A DNA stretch of 64,000 nt. Origin: Shewanella sediminis HAW-EB3 (GTDB lineage: Bacteria; Pseudomonadota; Gammaproteobacteria; Enterobacterales; Shewanellaceae). This document shows positions 25,341 through 32,749 of the stretch, piece after piece; the stretch's first letter is position 1; every line of letters begins with the position of its first letter. Made by a program: the position numbers and the translations under genes. The notes beneath the pieces are model-generated. The model made no database searches. It saw only the letters and a program-made list of their open reading frames with translations, and had not been told where the DNA came from. Location of the stretch: positions 4,650,001 through 4,714,000 of the forward strand of contig NC_009831.1 in the NCBI RefSeq assembly GCF_000018025.1, read 5' to 3'.

Positions 25341-25361
25341 TTAAGACATATTATGTCTTAA
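25341..25361. promoter_or_regulatory. 21-bp perfect palindrome, GACATA-T-TATGTC core
   Basis: The 13-base core GACATATTATGTC is at 25345-25357 and is extended on each side by TTAA to give a perfect 21-base palindrome centred at 25351. The same core occurs twice at the DUF2170 promoter (29405-29417 and 29439-29451). It lies between divergent glnE and the lipoprotein gene at 25521. On the minus strand it overlaps a possible glnE promoter (TTAAGA, 17 bases, GATAAT). Which gene it controls is open. Confidence 0.75.
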
Positions 25362-25520
25362 CTGTGACTAGCGTGTAACGACCAAGATTTAATCTAGTCA
25401 CCGAACTGAGTTTAAACAAAAAAAATTACTTTTTATTTCAAAGTAAGGGTTACTATAACCTAATGAAATACTAAGCTGATGATATTTTATCAGCCTCTAC
25501 CGAATATAAATGGAGAAAAT

Positions 25521-26480
25521 ATGGCAGCGATGTTCATACGTGTTCTCACTCTTACATTGCTTTTAACCTTAGTGGGTTGCGGTGATGACAGGCCCGATCG
25601 CATTGCGCAATACCAGCAATTGGCGGGTCAGAGAATAGATTCACTCAATCAGATGCTCGATAGCGGTCAGATCCGTAATGCCACCCTGCTTAAGCAATAC
25701 ACTGGTATTCTGGCAAAACAACAAACTGAACTGGCTCCCCTGCTCGATGAGCTGGCAAAAGATGCAACCACTAAAGGGCCTATGTTTACCTCTTTAGTGC
25801 GTCGTGTTCGCGAGCTTGGTGATGCAGGCAACTACATCGATCTCGATCAGCAGCTGGCAGAAGCTGAAAACATCTATCAAGCCGCCGATCCCAGTCTCTA
25901 TAACGACATGCTGTCAGATCCACTCAACGTCGTCGCCGATATGTCAAATGGTGCGCTGGCCCGAGTCAACTCCATCAGTCGTGAGGCTGCGGCTCTCGCC
26001 AATGGCTCCGAAGATTTTGGTGCGGGTAGCCAATTAGTCGGTAATCCGGGCTACGGCAGCTGGCAAACAGGCTCAAATGGCATGTCATTCTGGGCCTGGT
26101 ATGGCATGTACTCCATGTTTTCCAATGTGATGCGCGGCCCTATTGGCTACGATCGCTGGTCCAGCCGAAGAAACTACAGTTACTACAATGATGTAGGGCG
26201 TTACCGTTACACCTCTCCTAAACAGGCGAGTGCACAGAACAAAACCTTCGAGCGAACCAAGAAACAGTTCAACTCACAGGGGAAGAAATTCGACAGCCCC
26301 TATGCCAAATCACGCACGGGCTCAACCAGCTTATCGCGTCAAAGCACGAGTACACCCAAGGCGAGTTCGACAGGTACTCGCAGTAAAAGTGGCAGCAAGT
26401 TCCGTTCTAACTACTCTAAGAACAGTAACTTCCGTAATTCTAACAGTCGCACTACTCGCGGTGTACGCCGAGGCAAATAG
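25521..26480 (+). CDS. Lipoprotein with basic low-complexity tail
   Basis: From the ATG at 25521 (GGAG site 7 bases before it) the protein is 319 residues; an in-frame ATG at 25479 lacks a site. The lipobox LTLVGC is at about residues 15-20. The middle is helical with charged repeats (residues 25-150), followed by a Tyr/Trp/Gly-rich segment (SFWAWYGMYSMFSNVMRGPIG is its core). The last 90 residues are mostly Ser, Thr, Asn, Lys and Arg. I do not recognise a family. It lies 13 bases before the DUF350 gene, so it is part of that operon. The basic tail could contact membranes, cell wall or polyamine-modified partners; this is speculation. Confidence 0.75.
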   Translation: MAAMFIRVLTLTLLLTLVGCGDDRPDRIAQYQQLAGQRIDSLNQMLDSGQIRNATLLKQYTGILAKQQTELAPLLDELAKDATTKGPMFTSLVRRVRELGDAGNYIDLDQQLAEAENIYQAADPSLYNDMLSDPLNVVADMSNGALARVNSISREAAALANGSEDFGAGSQLVGNPGYGSWQTGSNGMSFWAWYGMYSMFSNVMRGPIGYDRWSSRRNYSYYNDVGRYRYTSPKQASAQNKTFERTKKQFNSQGKKFDSPYAKSRTGSTSLSRQSTSTPKASSTGTRSKSGSKFRSNYSKNSNFRNSNSRTTRGVRRGK

Positions 26481-26493
26481 ATAAGGACATACC

Positions 26494-27393
26494 ATGACAT
26501 TTTTTCAAAACTTCGGCATCACAACAGATCTAGCCATTATATTAGTGATCGATCTGACTATCGCCATTATTCTTTTAACCTTGATGCGCTACCTTCAGGG
26601 CTGGACAGCCAAGGTAGATAGCCGCATAGAACTGGCAGAGAAAGATAATTTTGCCTTCGGGATCAGTACCGCCGGCGCCATTGCAGGATTAGGTATCGTG
26701 CTCACCGGAGCCATCTCAGGTGAAGCCGCAGACTCCTATATTGTTGAGGCTATCGGCATGAGTGTTTATGGACTATTTGGCTTACTACTGATTAAGCTAG
26801 GTAGGTACTTTCACGATAAGGTTGCCCTGAATGAGCTCAATAAAAACGAGCAGATCCTCAAAGGGAATATCTCGGTTGCGATTGTCGATGCCTGCGCTGC
26901 AATTGCCACAGCCATCATCATACGTGCAGTATTGGTCTGGGCCGAAGACCTGACCCTTGATACCTTCATAGCCATCTTCAGTGCCTTTGCCATTTCACAG
27001 CTAATGTTGGTACTGCTAACCCGCTTTCGCGAATTTCGCTACGCCAAACGAAATCAAGATGCCTCGATGCAAGATGCACTTGTTCAAGGCCACACCGCGG
27101 TAGCTATCCGTCATAGTGGCTACATGTTGGCCATGGCGCTGAGCTTCAACGCTGCCAGCCATTTCATCATCTATAACCCTCAAGCCTATATCGCCAATCT
27201 TGTGGGCTGGTTCATCTTCTCAATCATTATGTTAGTCACTCTCTCTGTACTGATTAAGATAGTGAAAAAGCTGGTGTTATCTAAAATACATCTAGCTCAG
27301 GAGGTCGAGCAGCAACACAATATCGGTATCGCTACCGTGGAGCTGGCAATTAGTGTAGCTGTAGCCCTTATTCTAACGAGCCTAATGTACTAG
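26494..27393 (+). CDS. Inner-membrane protein with two DUF350 domains (YjfL-like)
   Basis: A 299-residue membrane protein with about 8 hydrophobic segments. It looks like two tandem copies of the roughly 130-residue DUF350 domain (UPF0719): FGISTAGAIAGLGIVLTGAI near residue 52 and GHTAVAIRHSGYMLAMALSF near residue 202 occupy equivalent positions, and each half ends in a VAI- or GIA-starting helix. E. coli YjfL is a single-domain member next to yjfI, yjfJ and yjfK. The function is unknown. An AAGGA site precedes the ATG, 13 bases after the lipoprotein gene. A hairpin with a T-rich tail follows, before the aminopropyltransferase gene. Confidence 0.88.
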   Translation: MTFFQNFGITTDLAIILVIDLTIAIILLTLMRYLQGWTAKVDSRIELAEKDNFAFGISTAGAIAGLGIVLTGAISGEAADSYIVEAIGMSVYGLFGLLLIKLGRYFHDKVALNELNKNEQILKGNISVAIVDACAAIATAIIIRAVLVWAEDLTLDTFIAIFSAFAISQLMLVLLTRFREFRYAKRNQDASMQDALVQGHTAVAIRHSGYMLAMALSFNAASHFIIYNPQAYIANLVGWFIFSIIMLVTLSVLIKIVKKLVLSKIHLAQEVEQQHNIGIATVELAISVAVALILTSLMY

Positions 27394-27422
27394 CCCAGAA
27401 TTTTTGTAGGAACACATAAAAT

Positions 27423-27454
27423 ACGGTTAATCATTTGATTAGCCGTTTTATTTT
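27423..27454 (+). terminator. Hairpin with T-rich tail between DUF350 and aminopropyltransferase genes
   Basis: ACGGTTAATC/GATTAGCCGT form a 10-base stem with one G-T pair and an ATTT loop, followed by TTTTATTTTA. It starts 30 bases after the DUF350 stop and 60 bases before the next GTG. It probably ends or weakens the two-gene transcript. Confidence 0.75.
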
Positions 27455-27483
27455 ATCCGCAAGCGTTTGACTGTGAGATACGA

Positions 27484-29271
27484 GTGAGTGAAGTGACGAG
27501 TTCCAAACTAACCCAACCTGAAGAAAGCCTGCCTGATGTGAAGGATCTATCCCCTGCACTAGGCACAAATACCATAGGCAGAGAACGAAAGTTAAGCTGG
27601 TTCGACGACACCTTGCTACTCGGCATAATGGCCGTATTAGCAGGCTGTGGCTTGATCTATGAATACCTTCTCTCTCACTATGCGGGTCGAATTCTGGGAG
27701 CATTAGAAGCTGCTATTTATACCATGATAGGCCTGATGATCGTCTCCATGGGAGTCGGTGCCTTTGCCGCCAGGAAAATACGTTGTGCCTTTACCGGTTT
27801 TGCCGTTCTGGAGCTCAGCGTCGCCCTGTGCGGCTCCCTGGCGATACTCATCACCGCCGCGATTATCGGTTTCGGTCAGCAACTACCACTCATTATCGCC
27901 AGCACGTTAGGCCTGCCGCCAGATCAGCTACCCGAAGGTGGCTTTATCGGCTTGCTTCAGCACCTGAGTGAATACCTGCCTTACTTCTGGGGCGTATTGC
28001 TCGGCTTGATGATAGGTATGGAGATCCCGCTCATTGCGCGTGTAAGACAGTCTTTATGTGATGAACACCTGATGCACAATGCTGGCACCATCTATGGCGC
28101 CGATTACATTGGTGCGGGTATCGGTGCTGCCATCTGGGTCAGCTTCATGTTAGCTATCGACATCCAGCTGGCTGCCGCCTTAACAGCCAGCTTTAATCTC
28201 TTGGCCGGCTTTATCTTTATCTGGCGCTTCTGGGATCGAATTAGATTTGTTAAAACCCTACTTGTAGGCCATTTTATCGCCAGTGGCATTCTGTTGATGT
28301 TGGCCTGGCATGGCCCGGGCTGGGAGCAAAACTTTAATAACCTGCTCTATAAAGATGAAGTGATCTACGCCAAATCTACTCGCTTCCAACAACTGACATT
28401 TACCGAGAGGCTCAGAGGCAGCGGCCTGGAACCGGTGTACTCTCTGTATATCAATGGAAGGTTGCAGTTCTCCAGTCAGGATGAGCATATCTATCATGCG
28501 TTTTTAGTCCATCCGACACTGGAAGCCAGCGCACGTCATAATAAGGTATTAATCATAGGTGGAGGCGACGGTTTAGGGCTAAAACAGGTACTAAAATGGC
28601 AGCCTGAGCAGGTCACCCTGATGGATCTGGACCGGGATCTTCTCGAGCTATTTACCTCTCATGATGCAGACATGCCCACTCGATTAAGTCAGACCCTGCT
28701 AAAACTGAACGGTGACGCACTCAATGATCCCAGAGTCGAGGTCGTTGTCGACGATGCCTTTAACGGAGTCGATAAGCTGCTGAAGAGGGGCGACAGGTAT
28801 GATGCCATCATCGTCGACTTGCCCGATCCCAGCCATCCAGATCTCAACAAGCTATACTCAGATCTTTTTTATAAGAAACTGAAGGAACTCTTAAGCAGTG
28901 ATGGTGCTCTAACGGTACAGTCGACCTCGCCTTATCATGCCCCTAAGGCCTTTATATCCGTCGGGAAAACGTTAGCACTGGCAGGCTTCAATGTCAGCCA
29001 ATACCATCACAATGTACCCAGTTTTGGTGAATGGGGTTGGAGCATAGCCACAGCATCGGGCAAGAGTGCTAAAAACAGATTAAGCGATATTGAACACCTA
29101 TCCATAGAAGACGATTGGTTAACACCAGGACTCATTAAAGGGTCATTTGAGTTCCCGGGCAACTTCTATCAGGATATGGATAAGATCGAGCCCAACCGCA
29201 TAGGCTCTATGCAACTGTACCAATATCACCAAAAGGCATGGACAGAAAATCAAGGCGTCACACTTTTCTGA
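27484..29271 (+). CDS. Membrane-anchored aminopropyltransferase (spermidine synthase-like)
   Basis: A 595-residue protein. Residues 40 to about 265 form 7 or 8 membrane segments (LLLGIMAVLAGCGLIYEYLLSHYAG onward), and the rest is a spermidine-synthase fold. The decarboxy-AdoMet-binding motif GGGDGLGLK is at about 358-366, and VDLPDPSHPDLNKLYS carries the catalytic aspartates. YDAIIVDLPDP matches the family closely. It should transfer an aminopropyl group to a polyamine or related amine at the membrane. It starts with GTG. The neighbours (DUF350, PspA, DUF2170, DUF2491, K+ channel) suggest a membrane-stress role. The exact substrate is unknown. Confidence 0.88.
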   Translation: MSEVTSSKLTQPEESLPDVKDLSPALGTNTIGRERKLSWFDDTLLLGIMAVLAGCGLIYEYLLSHYAGRILGALEAAIYTMIGLMIVSMGVGAFAARKIRCAFTGFAVLELSVALCGSLAILITAAIIGFGQQLPLIIASTLGLPPDQLPEGGFIGLLQHLSEYLPYFWGVLLGLMIGMEIPLIARVRQSLCDEHLMHNAGTIYGADYIGAGIGAAIWVSFMLAIDIQLAAALTASFNLLAGFIFIWRFWDRIRFVKTLLVGHFIASGILLMLAWHGPGWEQNFNNLLYKDEVIYAKSTRFQQLTFTERLRGSGLEPVYSLYINGRLQFSSQDEHIYHAFLVHPTLEASARHNKVLIIGGGDGLGLKQVLKWQPEQVTLMDLDRDLLELFTSHDADMPTRLSQTLLKLNGDALNDPRVEVVVDDAFNGVDKLLKRGDRYDAIIVDLPDPSHPDLNKLYSDLFYKKLKELLSSDGALTVQSTSPYHAPKAFISVGKTLALAGFNVSQYHHNVPSFGEWGWSIATASGKSAKNRLSDIEHLSIEDDWLTPGLIKGSFEFPGNFYQDMDKIEPNRIGSMQLYQYHQKAWTENQGVTLF

Positions 29272-29402
29272 TATTGAAAAGGTTAAATTTGTTTAATCGA
29301 AATTGAAGGCACAGGCCATAAGCGGACTCAAGTCTTGCTTACGCCTGAATATTTGGGAACATGAACTGAATTCAGTGCATGACACTTTTCGAAAAATAGC
29401 AC

Positions 29403-29430
29403 TTGACATATTATGTCGTGATGCTATCTT
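29403..29430 (+). promoter_or_regulatory. Sigma-70 promoter of DUF2170 gene overlapping an operator
   Basis: TTGACA at 29403-29408 is a perfect -35 element. A TATCTT at 29425-29430, 16 bases later, is a plausible -10. The palindrome GACATATTATGTC at 29405-29417 overlaps the -35, so a bound regulator would block polymerase. Transcription would start near 29437, just before the second palindrome. Confidence 0.7.
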
Positions 29431-29451
29431 TAATCGCAGACATAATATGTC
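29405..29451. promoter_or_regulatory. Two GACATA-W-TATGTC palindromes (operators)
   Basis: GACATATTATGTC at 29405-29417 and GACATAATATGTC at 29439-29451 are both perfect 13-base palindromes, with centres 34 bases apart. One overlaps the -35 and the other follows the expected transcript start, as in a repressed promoter. Their core equals that of the palindrome at 25345-25357. The regulator is not identified. Confidence 0.78.
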
Positions 29452-29463
29452 ATAAGGACAAAT

Positions 29464-29877
29464 ATGAATATTCACACTATTGCCAACCACCTCAATGACC
29501 TTTGTGATAAAAGCCATACCGGCTTGCAATTTGATTGCTATCCAATCGACGGCGAAGTAGAGGTTTTACAAGTCAATATCGTTGGACGTGAAGAGATCCC
29601 AGTATTCGTATCGGTGACAGAAAACCAAGTTCTCTGCATCAGTTACCTTTGGGGAGAAGACGAAGTAAATCAGGACCGTCGTTTAGCGATGTTTGAGACA
29701 ATGTTAGAACTCAACATCCCGATGCCACTGTCATCATTTGCAAAAATTGATGATAAGTATGTGATTTACGGCGCACTGTCTGTTCAATCAGACATGCAGG
29801 AGATAGAACAGGAGCTTTCCGTTCTTTCCGATAACTGCCTGGAAGTCATCGACGAAATGGTCGAGTACTTAAAGTAA
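29464..29877 (+). CDS. yjfI: DUF2170 family protein (YjfI-like)
   Basis: A 137-residue cytoplasmic protein, acidic overall. Its sequence (LCDKSHTGLQFDCYPIDGEVEVLQVNI, VSVTENQVLCISYLWGEDEV) fits DUF2170, represented by E. coli YjfI. No catalytic motif is evident. An AAGGA site precedes the ATG, and the gene is behind a promoter with two palindromic operators. The PspA-like gene follows after 61 bases, as yjfJ follows yjfI in E. coli. The function is unknown; an adaptor for the PspA-like protein is a reasonable guess. Confidence 0.88.
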   Translation: MNIHTIANHLNDLCDKSHTGLQFDCYPIDGEVEVLQVNIVGREEIPVFVSVTENQVLCISYLWGEDEVNQDRRLAMFETMLELNIPMPLSSFAKIDDKYVIYGALSVQSDMQEIEQELSVLSDNCLEVIDEMVEYLK

Positions 29878-29938
29878 TTTCTTATCAATTTTTTAGTCCC
29901 GGTTCAAGTCGCCGTGACTAGGTAAAAGGAGCCACATT

Positions 29939-30625
29939 ATGGGCATACTAAACAAGATTTTAACCGCTTTTCGTGGTGGTGCAACAGAAGTTGGTCAAGG
30001 CATCGTCGATGCAAACTCTACTCGTATCTTCGAGCAAGAGATCCGTGATGCGGAAAACCACCTGACAAAAGCTAAACGTGAATTAACTGACGTTATGGCC
30101 AAAGAGATGCAGGCCAGCCGCGAAATAGACCGCTTAAAGCGCTCCATCAGCGAACATGAAGGCTATGCCACTCAAGCACTCGAGAAAGAGAATGAAACCT
30201 TAGCGATGGAAGTGGCTGAGAAGATCTCTCAACTAGACCAGGAGCTTGCAGAGCAAGAAGGTGCAAACGTTAACTTCACTGCTCATGCGACTCGTCTTAA
30301 AGACCTCGTGCGTAAAACTGAGCGCCAGCTAACTGATTACCAACGTCAACTGAGCATGGTAAAGACCACTGAGAGTGTTCAAAAGGCAACGGCTAGCATC
30401 ACAGACTCTTTCGCAGGTAGCAGCTCTAAGCTATTAAATGCTAAAGATTCACTGGAGCGTATCAAGGCTCGTCAGCAGCAGTTTGATGACCGTCTGGTCG
30501 CAGCTGAGCAACTTGCCGATGAAAACAGTGATAAGTCACTACACGATAAACTTGCGGAAGCGGGCATTGGCGAGCAAAAATCGAATGCTAATGCAGTACT
30601 TGATCGCCTGAAAGCGCGCAAGTAA
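29939..30625 (+). CDS. yjfJ: PspA/IM30 family protein (YjfJ-like)
   Basis: A 228-residue, almost fully helical coiled-coil protein. The N-terminus (MGILNKILTAFRGGATEVGQGIVDANSTRIFEQ begins the amphipathic helix) and the long charged helices to about residue 200 fit PspA/IM30, peripheral inner-membrane proteins that protect or remodel membranes under stress. A strong AAGGAG site precedes the ATG. It is co-directional with, and 61 bases after, the DUF2170 gene. A strong terminator follows. It resembles E. coli YjfJ more than the PspA of the pspABC operon, because of its neighbours. Confidence 0.92.
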   Translation: MGILNKILTAFRGGATEVGQGIVDANSTRIFEQEIRDAENHLTKAKRELTDVMAKEMQASREIDRLKRSISEHEGYATQALEKENETLAMEVAEKISQLDQELAEQEGANVNFTAHATRLKDLVRKTERQLTDYQRQLSMVKTTESVQKATASITDSFAGSSSKLLNAKDSLERIKARQQQFDDRLVAAEQLADENSDKSLHDKLAEAGIGEQKSNANAVLDRLKARK

Positions 30626-30687
30626 CTATAGAAGCTAAATGAAGAGATTCAGCGTTAACTGCTTGAATAGATTCAACGCCTAATAAG

Positions 30688-30723
30688 TAGCGCTTTTCTT
30701 ATCACTAAGAAAGGCGCTATTTT
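30688..30723 (+). terminator. Rho-independent terminator after the PspA-like gene
   Basis: A 14-bp stem with one G-T pair (TAGCGCTTTTCTTA against TAAGAAAGGCGCTA) and a TCAC loop at 30688-30719 is followed by TTTT. It ends the DUF2170-PspA transcript and implies a separate promoter for the DUF2491 gene. Confidence 0.85.
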
Positions 30724-30818
30724 CGTCTTAGCGTTAAGCTCACACTAAGACAGGGATTATTCGAGCGAAGCCAAGTTATATAATTAAAAGTATTAATAAC
30801 CCAAAGTATCAGGAGTCG

Positions 30819-31475
30819 ATGATGGGATTTTTAAAAGGCCTTTTCGGTAAGAAAGAGGCGCCAAAACGTCAACTCGATCAACCCTCTCATCTGATGAAGG
30901 GCGATATGATCTCCCTCGATGACAGTTTTGCTCTGCCGCCTCAACTCAGGGGCCAACAGTTAAGAGTCGAATCTGTCAGTACTTATGAGTATGAACGCAG
31001 TCAAAAGGCTGAATGGGTGCTTAAAGGCCATGGTCAAGAGACGCTTTTTCTTTCACTCGATGAAGATGATGAAACCTATCTGGCATTCTCCATTAAGGTC
31101 AACCGCGGACAAGTTGAACAGATTTTCGACCTCGAACACTTTAGCGCTATCTTCGAAGAAGATGAACAAGCACAGCTTACGACTCAAGCCTTACCCAATG
31201 AGCTCTCCACACAATTTGAGCAGTGGTTAGGCAAAGAATATCATCAAGTTAACTCCGCGCAGTTTGGTTACTTTCACCGTGAGGATTATCGTGGCAAGAA
31301 ACCGCCACAGGATGAAAGCGGTGCAACAGGCGAGGCATTCGAATCCTACCTGTTAATGGATGACGAAGAGAAATTTGCTATCGATGTCGAAGTCTATGAC
31401 GGCGGTGAAACCGATGTCATGTTAACCTTGTATCGTCCATTGTCCGATATCAGAGATTATTGGCCAGGGAAGTAA
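30819..31475 (+). CDS. yjfK: DUF2491 family protein (YjfK-like)
   Basis: A 218-residue protein beginning MGFLKGLFGKKEAP, with the DUF2491 features LMKGDMISLDDSFALPPQLRG and LSLDEDDETYLAFSIKV. It is the homologue of E. coli YjfK, which lies between the PspA-like YjfJ and the DUF350 protein YjfL. It is rich in acidic residues and has no signal peptide. The AGGAG site suits the ATG at 30819 or the one immediately after it. A terminator separates it from the PspA-like gene. The biochemical role is unknown. Confidence 0.86.
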   Translation: MMGFLKGLFGKKEAPKRQLDQPSHLMKGDMISLDDSFALPPQLRGQQLRVESVSTYEYERSQKAEWVLKGHGQETLFLSLDEDDETYLAFSIKVNRGQVEQIFDLEHFSAIFEEDEQAQLTTQALPNELSTQFEQWLGKEYHQVNSAQFGYFHREDYRGKKPPQDESGATGEAFESYLLMDDEEKFAIDVEVYDGGETDVMLTLYRPLSDIRDYWPGK

Positions 31476-31482
31476 ACTCTTT

Positions 31483-31512
31483 AGAACCTAGGTTCTAGCT
31501 CCTAGGTTCTAA
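31483..31512. repeat. AGAACCTAGGTTCT palindrome and direct repeat
   Basis: AGAACCTAGGTTCT at 31483-31496 is a perfect 14-base palindrome. Its CCTAGGTTCTA part recurs directly downstream, ending at about 31511. It lies in the 66-base gap after the DUF2491 gene. Similar TAG-rich words occur near 60500. No regulatory role is evident. Confidence 0.6.
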
Positions 31513-31541
31513 GTTAGATTTCAATTTTTAAGGTAAACGGT

Positions 31542-31871
31542 ATGACTAAGCAGAAGAGCCCACTACCGGAACAATGGTTACAAAACCAGAAGGCGGCCAA
31601 GGCGACACAGGTGGCTTTCGATCTCGATGAGAAGTTCCAATACTCTATTCGTAAAGCCGCATTAGACTCAGGCTTTAGCCCCTCGGATCAGATCCGTACC
31701 ATTCTGGGGCTTTCGGTGACCAAGCGGCCTAAACGTCCCAGACTCACCGTCTCTCTCAGCCCTGAAGATTATCTCCAGTTAGCTGAAAAATATGATCTAT
31801 CGCCAGAGCAGCAACTCGAAATAAAAAAACATGTATTGGACGATCTCATCCACTTTGTCGATAAAAGCTAG
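31542..31871 (+). CDS. Small hypothetical protein in the yjf-like block
   Basis: A 109-residue soluble protein of unknown family. It is basic in the middle (VTKRPKRPRLTVSLSPEDY) and otherwise helical. The segment SIRKAALDSGFSPSDQIRTILGL resembles a ribbon-helix-helix or related small DNA-binding arrangement (residues 33-56), which raises the possibility that it is the regulator of the block's palindromic operators; this is a guess. It lies 66 bases after the DUF2491 gene and 71 bases before the K+ channel gene, in the same direction. Confidence 0.72.
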   Translation: MTKQKSPLPEQWLQNQKAAKATQVAFDLDEKFQYSIRKAALDSGFSPSDQIRTILGLSVTKRPKRPRLTVSLSPEDYLQLAEKYDLSPEQQLEIKKHVLDDLIHFVDKS

Positions 31872-31942
31872 TACACTCATGCAGATGCCTGCCAGAAAAA
31901 TAGGTAGGCAATCGATAAAGTATAGTGATATTGGACGAGATC

Positions 31943-32749
31943 ATGGCTGATAAAAAACGCTGGTTACTTCACCCGGAGCAAGCTCCAACCCCTTTCCAAC
32001 TTGCAATGATGATGCTTTCACTGTTGTCAGTCATTGTTGTTCTTGTTCTCAGCTTTGCTTCTCTCGACTCAGAAACCAACCGACTCCTGCTCTTTGTAGA
32101 TTTCAGTATCTGCATGATTTTTATGACCTACTTCTTTGTTAACTTATTCAGAGCAGAGAATAAAATTGACTATATCAAGCACAACTGGATAGATTTCGTT
32201 GCCAGTATTCCAGCGATAGAGCCCCTGAGGCTAGCTAGGCTGTTTCAAATTTTACGAGTGATACGTCTTATTCGTATGACTCAGTCTTTAATCATTCCCA
32301 TCATAAAGCAGCGCAGACAAGCGACACTGGCCAGCCTGTTAGTGGCTATGGTCACCATCCTGACCTTCGCATCGGTATTAATGCTTATCGTAGAGGCGGG
32401 CGTACCAGACGCAAATATTCATACCGCAGAAGATGCCATCTGGTGGACCTTAGTCACCATCTCAACCGTGGGCTATGGCGATTACTATCCGGTGACCGCT
32501 GCGGGCCACGTGATTGGTGGTGTCGTCATTATTTGTGGCGTCAGTTTTTTCGGTGTTATCTCAGGTTATATGGCCTCTCTGTTTATCGCGCCGGATGAGT
32601 CAGAAAAACTTGAAACTCACAGCGAGCAGATCCGTTGTGAACTGCATGAAGCACTGGCTAGAATGGAAGCGAATCAAGGTGTGTTGATGGAGCAAATTGA
32701 ACAGCTGAACCAAAAATTAGAAGAAAAGAAAGATACGCCAGAGAGCTAG
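31943..32749 (+). CDS. Voltage-gated-type potassium channel
   Basis: A 268-residue inner-membrane channel with 6 membrane segments from the ATG at 31943 (MADKKRW); a GTG at 31925 is an alternative. The fourth segment is Arg-rich (RLARLFQILRVIRLIRM), like a voltage sensor. The selectivity filter TVGYGD is at about 174-180 within WTLVTISTVGYGDYYPV. The C-terminal 50 residues form a coiled coil. It should conduct K+ across the inner membrane. It ends the block that starts with the 319-residue lipoprotein. A K+ channel near PspA-like genes fits control of membrane potential. Confidence 0.9.
   Translation: MADKKRWLLHPEQAPTPFQLAMMMLSLLSVIVVLVLSFASLDSETNRLLLFVDFSICMIFMTYFFVNLFRAENKIDYIKHNWIDFVASIPAIEPLRLARLFQILRVIRLIRMTQSLIIPIIKQRRQATLASLLVAMVTILTFASVLMLIVEAGVPDANIHTAEDAIWWTLVTISTVGYGDYYPVTAAGHVIGGVVIICGVSFFGVISGYMASLFIAPDESEKLETHSEQIRCELHEALARMEANQGVLMEQIEQLNQKLEEKKDTPES

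Follow-up and report, generated by a model that had tools for sequence, protein, structure and literature searches.

We analysed a block of eight genes within a 64,000-nucleotide stretch of the Shewanella sediminis HAW-EB3 genome (NC_009831.1, positions 4,650,001 to 4,714,000 of the forward strand; this whole stretch is called the window). The first gene of the block encodes a lipoprotein with a basic tail, and the third a relative of spermidine synthase with seven transmembrane (TM) helices, here called TM-SpeE. We propose, at a probability of roughly 0.55, that TM-SpeE, acting outside the inner membrane, adds aminopropyl groups to the lysine that invariably ends this lipoprotein, whose gene lies two places upstream; both the chemistry and the sidedness are predicted from sequence. 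At about even odds, this would be one case of a widespread bacterial system in which a 7TM enzyme places one or perhaps several aminopropyl groups on the last lysine of dedicated anchored carrier tails, as a second solution beside the ATP-grasp ligases that act on Gly-Gly tails and as the reason why bacteria devoid of spermidine synthase keep an S-adenosylmethionine (AdoMet) decarboxylase. The operon itself is known; the terminal-lysine rule was not found described, and the protein modification proposed here would be of a new kind.

The tail of the carrier lipoprotein is a low-complexity sequence of Ser, Lys, Arg, Gly, Asn and Tyr, almost without acidic residues. In the AlphaFold2 (AF2) model the N-terminal domain was helical and mostly confident, and residues 265-319 had a pLDDT below 50. 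Among 79 homologues of the lipoprotein, the 78 with the stop codon inside the contig were taken as the complete set (75 distinct tails). The final residue was lysine in 78/78 of these, preceded by glycine in 77/78. An alignment of 41 homologues contained 27 invariant columns, including the lipobox cysteine C20 and K319, which was the sole invariant column past residue 227 of 319. A previous sequence-only reading of the block, which had noted the basic tail, missed its most telling feature, the invariant lysine that ends this tail and is tied to the transferase.

The tie to the transferase was visible in a natural loss within the genus, which was sampled with 97 genomes, that of the window included. 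The transferase was found in 94/97 genomes (in three of them split into at least two frames) and the lipoprotein in 95/97. Gly-Lys-stop closed the lipoprotein gene in 93/93 other transferase-bearing genomes, or 94/94 with the window. Genome G277 kept the other seven block genes, while its transferase gene was gone, with no remnant detected by tblastn, and its lipoprotein ended in -SFRRR. In G287, the lipoprotein, DUF350 protein and transferase were not found at the locus, where DUF2170, PspA, the small gene and the channel were present; this genome was also without AdoMet decarboxylase. The channel was the only block gene left at the locus in G290. Both G277 and G290 retained a SpeE-like open reading frame (ORF) and the decarboxylase. 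As the invariant lysine end is tied to the transferase, the acceptor would be a protein outside the inner membrane and not a free compound.

Lysine ends were also found on unrelated proteins beside distant enzymes. Plasmid-borne distant transferases shared 29-33% identity, with 89-98% of the query aligned. Distant transferases were mostly without this lipoprotein and adjoined other anchored proteins with a lysine end, namely lipoproteins, single-pass proteins of 46-100 aa and tails fused to DUF4178, ending in -GK, -HK or -R[VI]K. Small lipoprotein carriers were present at loci L036, L038 and L047, a 510-aa lipoprotein carrier on an Alteromonas plasmid, and single-pass carriers in several genera, among them Ensifer, Novosphingobium and Tritonibacter; certain genomes had the tail joined to DUF4178 behind a membrane helix. 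Four of these carriers were searched against Pfam and had no family there.

To extend the observation, a prediction was fixed before 38 further loci were fetched from a phylum-wide sample. The carrier rule required an anchor or lipobox and an acid-poor polar tail and ignored the last residue; its exact form was coded after Lys-ended candidates were visible, so that the comparison was not fully blind. A Lys-ended carrier was recovered in 30/38 loci, comprising 9/11 with a close (group A) enzyme and 21/27 with a distant one; the next commonest end residue, leucine, reached 10/38. At canonical speE loci, used as control, a Lys-ended ORF that fits the rule was present in 1/20 (Fisher P = 4e-8). 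Applied to the sets already seen, the strict rule gave a lysine carrier in 70/80, 12/15 and 5/10 loci. Examined by eye, the eight phylum misses included a carrier at L188, L191, L192 (other strand) and L202 (directly upstream).

The rule had been derived on L033-L046 and L176-L185, which together with L187-L224 make up a 62-locus set containing the near-duplicates L178/L185 and L176/L177/L184; L047 (truncated enzyme, carrier end SGK) and L186 (plasmid type of L180) stand outside it. A looser two-strand pattern was found in 56/62 of these loci, compared to 1/20 canonical speE loci. Under this looser rule, counting every lysine end gave 58/62 and 5/20, and arginine ends gave 37/62 and 15/20. By eye, carriers were counted in 55/62 loci, the pattern's 56th being a 570-aa ORF in L189 that was judged a chance match.

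The smallest carriers bear on two other explanations of the tail. The terminal lysine was the sole lysine of the tail in 22/25 minimal carriers (some of the 25 being close relatives), in tails where arginines were present, and many minimal carriers look anchored in the inner membrane, with tails of 27-40 residues. In the lipoprotein family of the window a lipobox was recognised in 69/78 homologues; the residue at +2 was never Asp, and the carrier is therefore likely sorted to the outer membrane, as judged from sequence. Such sorting would fit a tether of the Braun lipoprotein type, in which an L,D-transpeptidase would couple peptidoglycan to the epsilon-amine of the last residue, with the transferase working elsewhere or controlling the attachment; Lpp itself ends in a lysine linked to peptidoglycan. 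We regard this as improbable, since many carriers seem to be short-tailed peptides anchored in the inner membrane and the lysine end follows the transferase over non-homologous carriers and is lost with the enzyme. An acceptor in the form of an envelope lipid or lipopolysaccharide, with the basic tail merely bringing the enzyme to the anionic membrane, would agree with a membrane-embedded enzyme, polycationic tails and PspA and DUF350 neighbours. It gives no reason for the lysine end or for the Lys-free remainder of most minimal tails, and appears very improbable.

TM-SpeE has 595 aa, with the spermine_synth domain at residues 334-528. It scored above the NCBIfam PRK03612 cut-off (671 vs 472 bits) and below those of the canonical speE models (109.5 of 249.6 bits for TIGR00417 and 130.9 of 260 bits for PRK00811), and its nearest named relatives were from Shewanella. 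With the canonical SpeE family (spermidine, thermospermine and agmatine enzymes) it shares the fold and the catalytic acids, and it differs by its 7TM domain, the speE scores below cut-off, the predicted periplasmic site and the protein partner. The catalytic residues D362 (GGGDG), D383, D445-x-x-D448-P and Q479 were all retained, and the 7TM part carries the conserved intramembrane acids E60, E110, E180 and D207. TM helices were modelled by AF2 at residues 39-71, 74-98, 102-142, 153-191, 199-220, 227-248 and 256-286. Lys plus Arg counts per loop were 2.4-3.5 on the N-terminal side versus 0.3-1.7 on the opposite side in 89 TM-SpeE sequences, and 2.3-3.3 in the three inner loops versus 0.4-0.7 outside in 27 distant sequences. 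From the seven helices and this charge bias the catalytic domain is predicted to be periplasmic, on the same side as the carrier tails.

In all 116 sequences, Phe stood in place of a Tyr that we take to be the acceptor-site residue of related enzymes; in the Pyrobaculum small-molecule enzyme the aligned stretch also reads PSF, which makes the exchange weak evidence. Small-molecule aminopropyltransferases gave the nearest folds, and spermidine synthases followed shortly after the top rows. A fold search with the 7TM part returned, in the rows shown, aminopropyltransferases and other enzyme-domain matches.

One gene is a candidate source of decarboxylated AdoMet. Class 1 AdoMet decarboxylase was not found in the source genome, and the only AdoMet decarboxylase found there was of class 2 (eukaryote-type), at 3160087-3160887, between an arginine decarboxylase (speA-like) and an agmatinase (speB-like) gene, both named from sequence reading. 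Across the genus, class 2 was present in 94/97 and class 1 in 0/97 genomes. A second SpeE-like ORF (59-74 bits, assigned by score) occurred in 19/97 genus genomes, and 17 of these ORFs lay within ~3 kb of the decarboxylase gene. The membrane transferase was the sole SpeE-like protein in 77 genomes, 76 of which keep the decarboxylase. In the source genome the sole other SpeE-like ORF scored 25 bits and had GGGG where GGGDG is expected. Among the 79 named loci described below, 18 contained a class 1b AdoMet decarboxylase.

These genes and folds could instead reflect a membrane-bound enzyme that makes a small polyamine (spermidine or a non-standard one) for delivery to the envelope, with the lysine tail as an unmodified docking, sensing or pseudosubstrate element. 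We consider this unlikely, though it draws on the complete set of catalytic residues, on the small-molecule nearest folds, on the putrescine-type genes flanking the decarboxylase and on the majority of genus genomes, which show no second SpeE. It explains neither why the last residue is invariant and disappears together with the enzyme nor why there are tails with a single lysine. Work by Li and colleagues from 2019 on fusions of major facilitator superfamily proteins with spermidine synthase reportedly found no spermidine and no complementation of speE, and is said to have suggested another acceptor; the Phe-for-Tyr exchange points weakly in the same direction. Under the lysine-acceptor proposal, orphan membrane "spermidine synthases" gain a concrete candidate substrate, and the role of AdoMet decarboxylase in bacteria without spermidine synthase becomes directly testable.

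The proposed sequence of events would be as follows. Decarboxylated AdoMet would be made by the class 2 decarboxylase, whose gene was observed and whose flux is assumed, and would cross the membrane through the acid-bearing 7TM domain, the DUF350 protein or both. The periplasmic domain would then move the aminopropyl group onto the epsilon-amine of the terminal lysine. The side chain of lysine is a four-carbon primary amine and may be viewed as a peptide-bound putrescine, so that one transfer would yield a spermidine-like group. The modified lipoprotein would probably reside in the outer membrane and there bind anionic envelope polymers through its polycationic tip. On the cytosolic and membrane side, stress would be sensed by DUF2170/PspA together with the DUF4178-like protein, the small protein and the channel, as judged from the literature. 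If true, bacteria would possess an extracytoplasmic C-terminal polyamine modification, and PspA/YjfJ modules would be tied to envelope charge. Polyamine-type groups on peptides or proteins are otherwise represented by hypusine, silaffin polyamines and the aminopropylation of microcin C; to our knowledge none of these combines a membrane enzyme with a lysine-ended extracytoplasmic tail. In the literature searched, with most subscription papers outside it, no aminopropylation of a lipoprotein C-terminal lysine was described, and a possible cause of oversight is that trypsin trims the C-terminus to Gly-Lys.

A subtype of the system was marked by a flavin amine oxidase gene, found in 19/62 loci of the set defined above. 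A carrier was present in 18 of these and ended in His-Lys in 18/18. Of the 43/62 loci without oxidase, 37 had a carrier, with a His-Lys end in 1/37. An N-terminal twin-Arg motif was found in 8/13 oxidase ORFs, several with a lipobox, which suggests by sequence that the oxidase acts outside the cytosol.

Much of the operon has been described before. In the passages available to us, Ravi et al. 2024 (PMC11237479) define a group 2 (example AAN56744.1-AAN56747.1) with a 7TM-spermine synthase fusion, an 8TM DUF350 protein, a "novel lipoprotein", DUF4178, CesT/Tir (DUF2170)-PspA and sometimes a ribbon-helix-helix (RHH) protein, the latter at the place of the 109-aa gene here, and propose that PspA systems monitor polyamine or the aminopropylation of other substrates. 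The block of the window matches the CesT/Tir-PspA dyad, the transferase fusion, DUF350 and the lipoprotein of this group, and DUF4178 below cut-off (20.2 vs 25 bits), and has the channel in addition. The group 2 text, as far as it was available, is without a K+ channel, a terminal lysine, a periplasmic catalytic domain or non-homologous carriers. Group 3 of the same paper, in those passages, has an ATP-grasp ligase, DUF2491, DUF1190 and a K+ channel; the block differs from this yjf/ATP-grasp type in having no GspS-like ligase, DUF2491 or DUF1190.

Like the block, the E. coli yjfIJKLMC operon encodes DUF2170, PspA and DUF350 proteins and has a polyamine-attaching enzyme next to a lipoprotein-like partner that bears a Ser/Arg/Gly tail, and ygiBC consists only of the DUF1190 partner and the peptide-spermidine ligase. 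Where yjf/ygi have an ATP-grasp ligase, a Gly-Gly end and DUF2491, the block has an aminopropyltransferase, Gly-Lys and DUF4178; the two operon types share DUF350, DUF2170 and PspA and exchange the enzyme and the tail end jointly. The E. coli DUF1190 proteins end in ...GHWGG (YjfM) and ...RSMGG (YgiB), and each is encoded directly upstream of an annotated peptide-spermidine ligase, an activity known to us from annotation and from passages citing Pederick et al. 2023. Although 117/120 DUF1190 proteins listed end in GG, 116 share RSMGG as close enterobacterial relatives, and six differing sequences were therefore counted (two from E. coli and four from other genomes, two of these sharing a genus), with a GG end in 6/6. 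By reading, three of the four relatives outside E. coli had YjfL- and YjfK-like neighbours. If the proposal is true, the Gly-Gly ends of the neighbours YgiB and YjfM are suggested as targets of the E. coli ligases, and yjf/ygi would reach a similar end by means of an ATP-grasp peptide-spermidine ligase and a Gly-Gly DUF1190 tail. In SUMO/ubiquitin-spermidine conjugation, a precedent for linking spermidine to a Gly-Gly end according to the available part of PMC12270671, the polyamine is placed on the extreme C-terminus of a protein, by eukaryotic E1/E2 chemistry on a Gly-Gly carboxylate, which is unlike the block.

Several points weigh against the proposed lysine modification. The presumed donor, decarboxylated AdoMet, is found in the cytosol, and we know of no exporter for it. 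The topology is based on loop charges; in the distant set of 27 sequences, the segment following TM7 had a Lys plus Arg count of 1.9, slightly above the N-terminus (1.6). The closest solved enzymes act on small amines. Group A tails hold many further lysines. The terminal lysine could serve for recognition or structure. The Gly-Lys end was lost in one event only. The strict rule gave a lysine carrier in just half of the ten plasmid loci, where a candidate was present in all ten by eye; no carrier was found by eye at L189, L197, L214 and L217 (4/38 phylum loci), nor at the earlier loci L040, L041 and L045, L041 and L197 being short contigs. The correlation of His-Lys with the oxidase is confounded with clade and may do no more than reflect it. 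Finally, the parallel ligases are presumably cytosolic ATP-grasp enzymes, so that the parallel would need modification before export.

Conservation of the gene set was assessed in loci collected by a search with ten aligned transferases. The best 80 of 259 confirmed loci were named, 79 of them with a full transferase; some of these loci are truncated at contig ends, and genomes already in the class sample may recur among them (L041 and L050 agree in length and gene order). The lipoprotein was present in 73/79, DUF350 in 75/79 and both together in 72/79; DUF2170 was found in 63, PspA in 62, DUF4178 in 63 and the small protein in 51 of the 79. The gene set is far beyond chance, and the transferase, DUF350, PspA, DUF2170 and the channel recur jointly across many genera. 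The sequence-only reading had named the comparison of neighbourhoods as its test, and with transferase, channel and yjf-like genes co-occurring its idea survives it. That idea, close to the proposal of Ravi et al., was that the set makes or senses an aminopropylated compound at a stressed membrane; the co-occurrence stood, while the lysine end points to a protein acceptor and not to a free compound. In its strict form, with a membrane-stress module built around PspA that senses or produces such a compound and has no protein acceptor, the idea has the gene co-occurrence on its side and is highly improbable: 17/79 named loci had no PspA gene in reach (some being cut by contig ends), so that PspA looks like an add-on.

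A K+ channel (counted above 100 bits) was present in 49/79 named loci, with 25 of the two-TM RCK type and 24 of the Kv type like that of the window, the two types mostly occupying one slot after the small gene, as though conductance alone mattered. It was found in 47/62 loci with PspA versus 2/17 without. In the genus, a channel homologue was found in 97/97 genomes, and the three without transferase had it at the block position. A strict partnership of channel and transferase was ruled out, as the channel was kept in 3/3 genus genomes lacking the enzyme. Its place in the set, as claimed earlier, holds in a weaker form: the K+ channel is a looser member, yet part of this operon type.

Features of the block are listed in Table 1. 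Eight consecutive ORFs run in series on the + strand at 25479-32749, with intergenic gaps of 13-193 bases, as the sequence-only reading had described them except for its block start at 25341, whereas the first ORF is open from 25479 and more likely begins at 25521. The block is flanked by glnE and a CYTH-domain gene, each on the minus strand, and the source genome is a single contig of 5.52 Mb.

Table 1. Positions of the block features in the window, with the basis of each assignment.
Feature	Positions	Strand	Basis
Carrier lipoprotein, 319 aa from ATG at 25521 (ORF open from 25479)	25521..26480	+	lipobox Cys, helical domain, disordered Ser/Lys/Arg/Gly-rich tail
C-terminal Gly-Lys codons, proposed acceptor site	26472..26477	+	Lys in 78/78 and Gly before it in 77/78 complete homologues
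Double DUF350 membrane protein (YjfL family)	26494..27393	+	PF03994, 132 bits, two stretches
TM-SpeE, PRK03612-type membrane aminopropyltransferase	27484..29271	+	NF002956, 671 bits; AF2 mean pLDDT 88.6
TM-SpeE seven TM helices, residues 39-286	27598..28341	+	AF2, loop charges, conservation
TM-SpeE aminopropyltransferase domain, residues 287-595, predicted periplasmic	28342..29268	+	
DUF2170/YjfI, CesT/Tir-type chaperone-like protein	29464..29877	+	PF09938, 125 bits; CesT/Tir assignment from the available passages of Ravi et al.
PspA/IM30 family protein, YjfJ-like	29939..30625	+	PF04012 (PspA_IM30), 135 bits
DUF4178-like protein, 218 aa	30819..31475	+	PF13785, 20.2 bits (cut-off 25)
Small protein, 109 aa, at RHH position of published operon	31542..31871	+	homologues in 51/79 named loci
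Kv-like K+ channel, Ion_trans type	31925..32749	+	PF00520, 66 bits; filter TVGYGD read from sequence

The analysis agreed with the earlier assignments of a lipoprotein with basic tail, a double DUF350 protein, an aminopropyltransferase, DUF2170, PspA/IM30 and a K+ channel. The carrier lipoprotein had zero Pfam or NCBIfam family matches, and Foldseek with its N-terminal domain gave zero matches at E <= 0.001, which is not proof of a new fold. All Pfam families were below cut-off for the 109-aa protein. The PspA of the block was below the TIGR02977 equivalog cut-off (14.1 vs 243 bits) and hence not the classical psp-operon PspA. DUF2491, to which the 218-aa protein had been assigned, was ruled out: the best Pfam match was DUF4178, itself below cut-off, and DUF2491 was unmatched among the proteins of the block, while E. 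coli YjfK is a true DUF2491 protein (239 bits). A profile-profile comparison of the 218-aa group with DUF2491 covered 58 N-terminal columns only, at 53.7% probability. There was no DUF1190 in the source genome, and the absence of the YjfC-type ATP-grasp ligase was borne out by zero GSP_synth matches across the whole genome.

A reading as a defence system was set aside, the matches being only a partial one to mad2 (PADLOC, 48.6 bits, TM-SpeE residues 351-514) and weak PspA-JetC matches. There were 8 terminator-like hairpins (7.1 expected) and 18 promoter-like sites (12.9 expected, standard deviation 3.2), neither number clearly above shuffles; hairpins within the block were located at 27423-27446, after DUF350, and at 31480-31513, after the DUF4178-like gene.

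Some variants of the locus were also recorded. The transferase genes at L214/L056 and L045 look solitary, with no carrier or DUF350 nearby, their partner being perhaps elsewhere or lost. Lysine-ended tails on large ORFs with a preceding membrane helix were seen at L187, L190, L193, L195, L198, L224 and L034; DUF4178 was confirmed in L193, the other large tail ORFs look similar, and DUF4178 itself may recognise or present the tail. A UPF0114 membrane protein was encoded between the transferase and DUF2170 at L042 (7979-8485) and L043 (10500-11078), and the plasmid-borne versions L180 and L182 carried a toxic-anion-resistance or SPFH-domain gene next to DUF4178 and DUF350.

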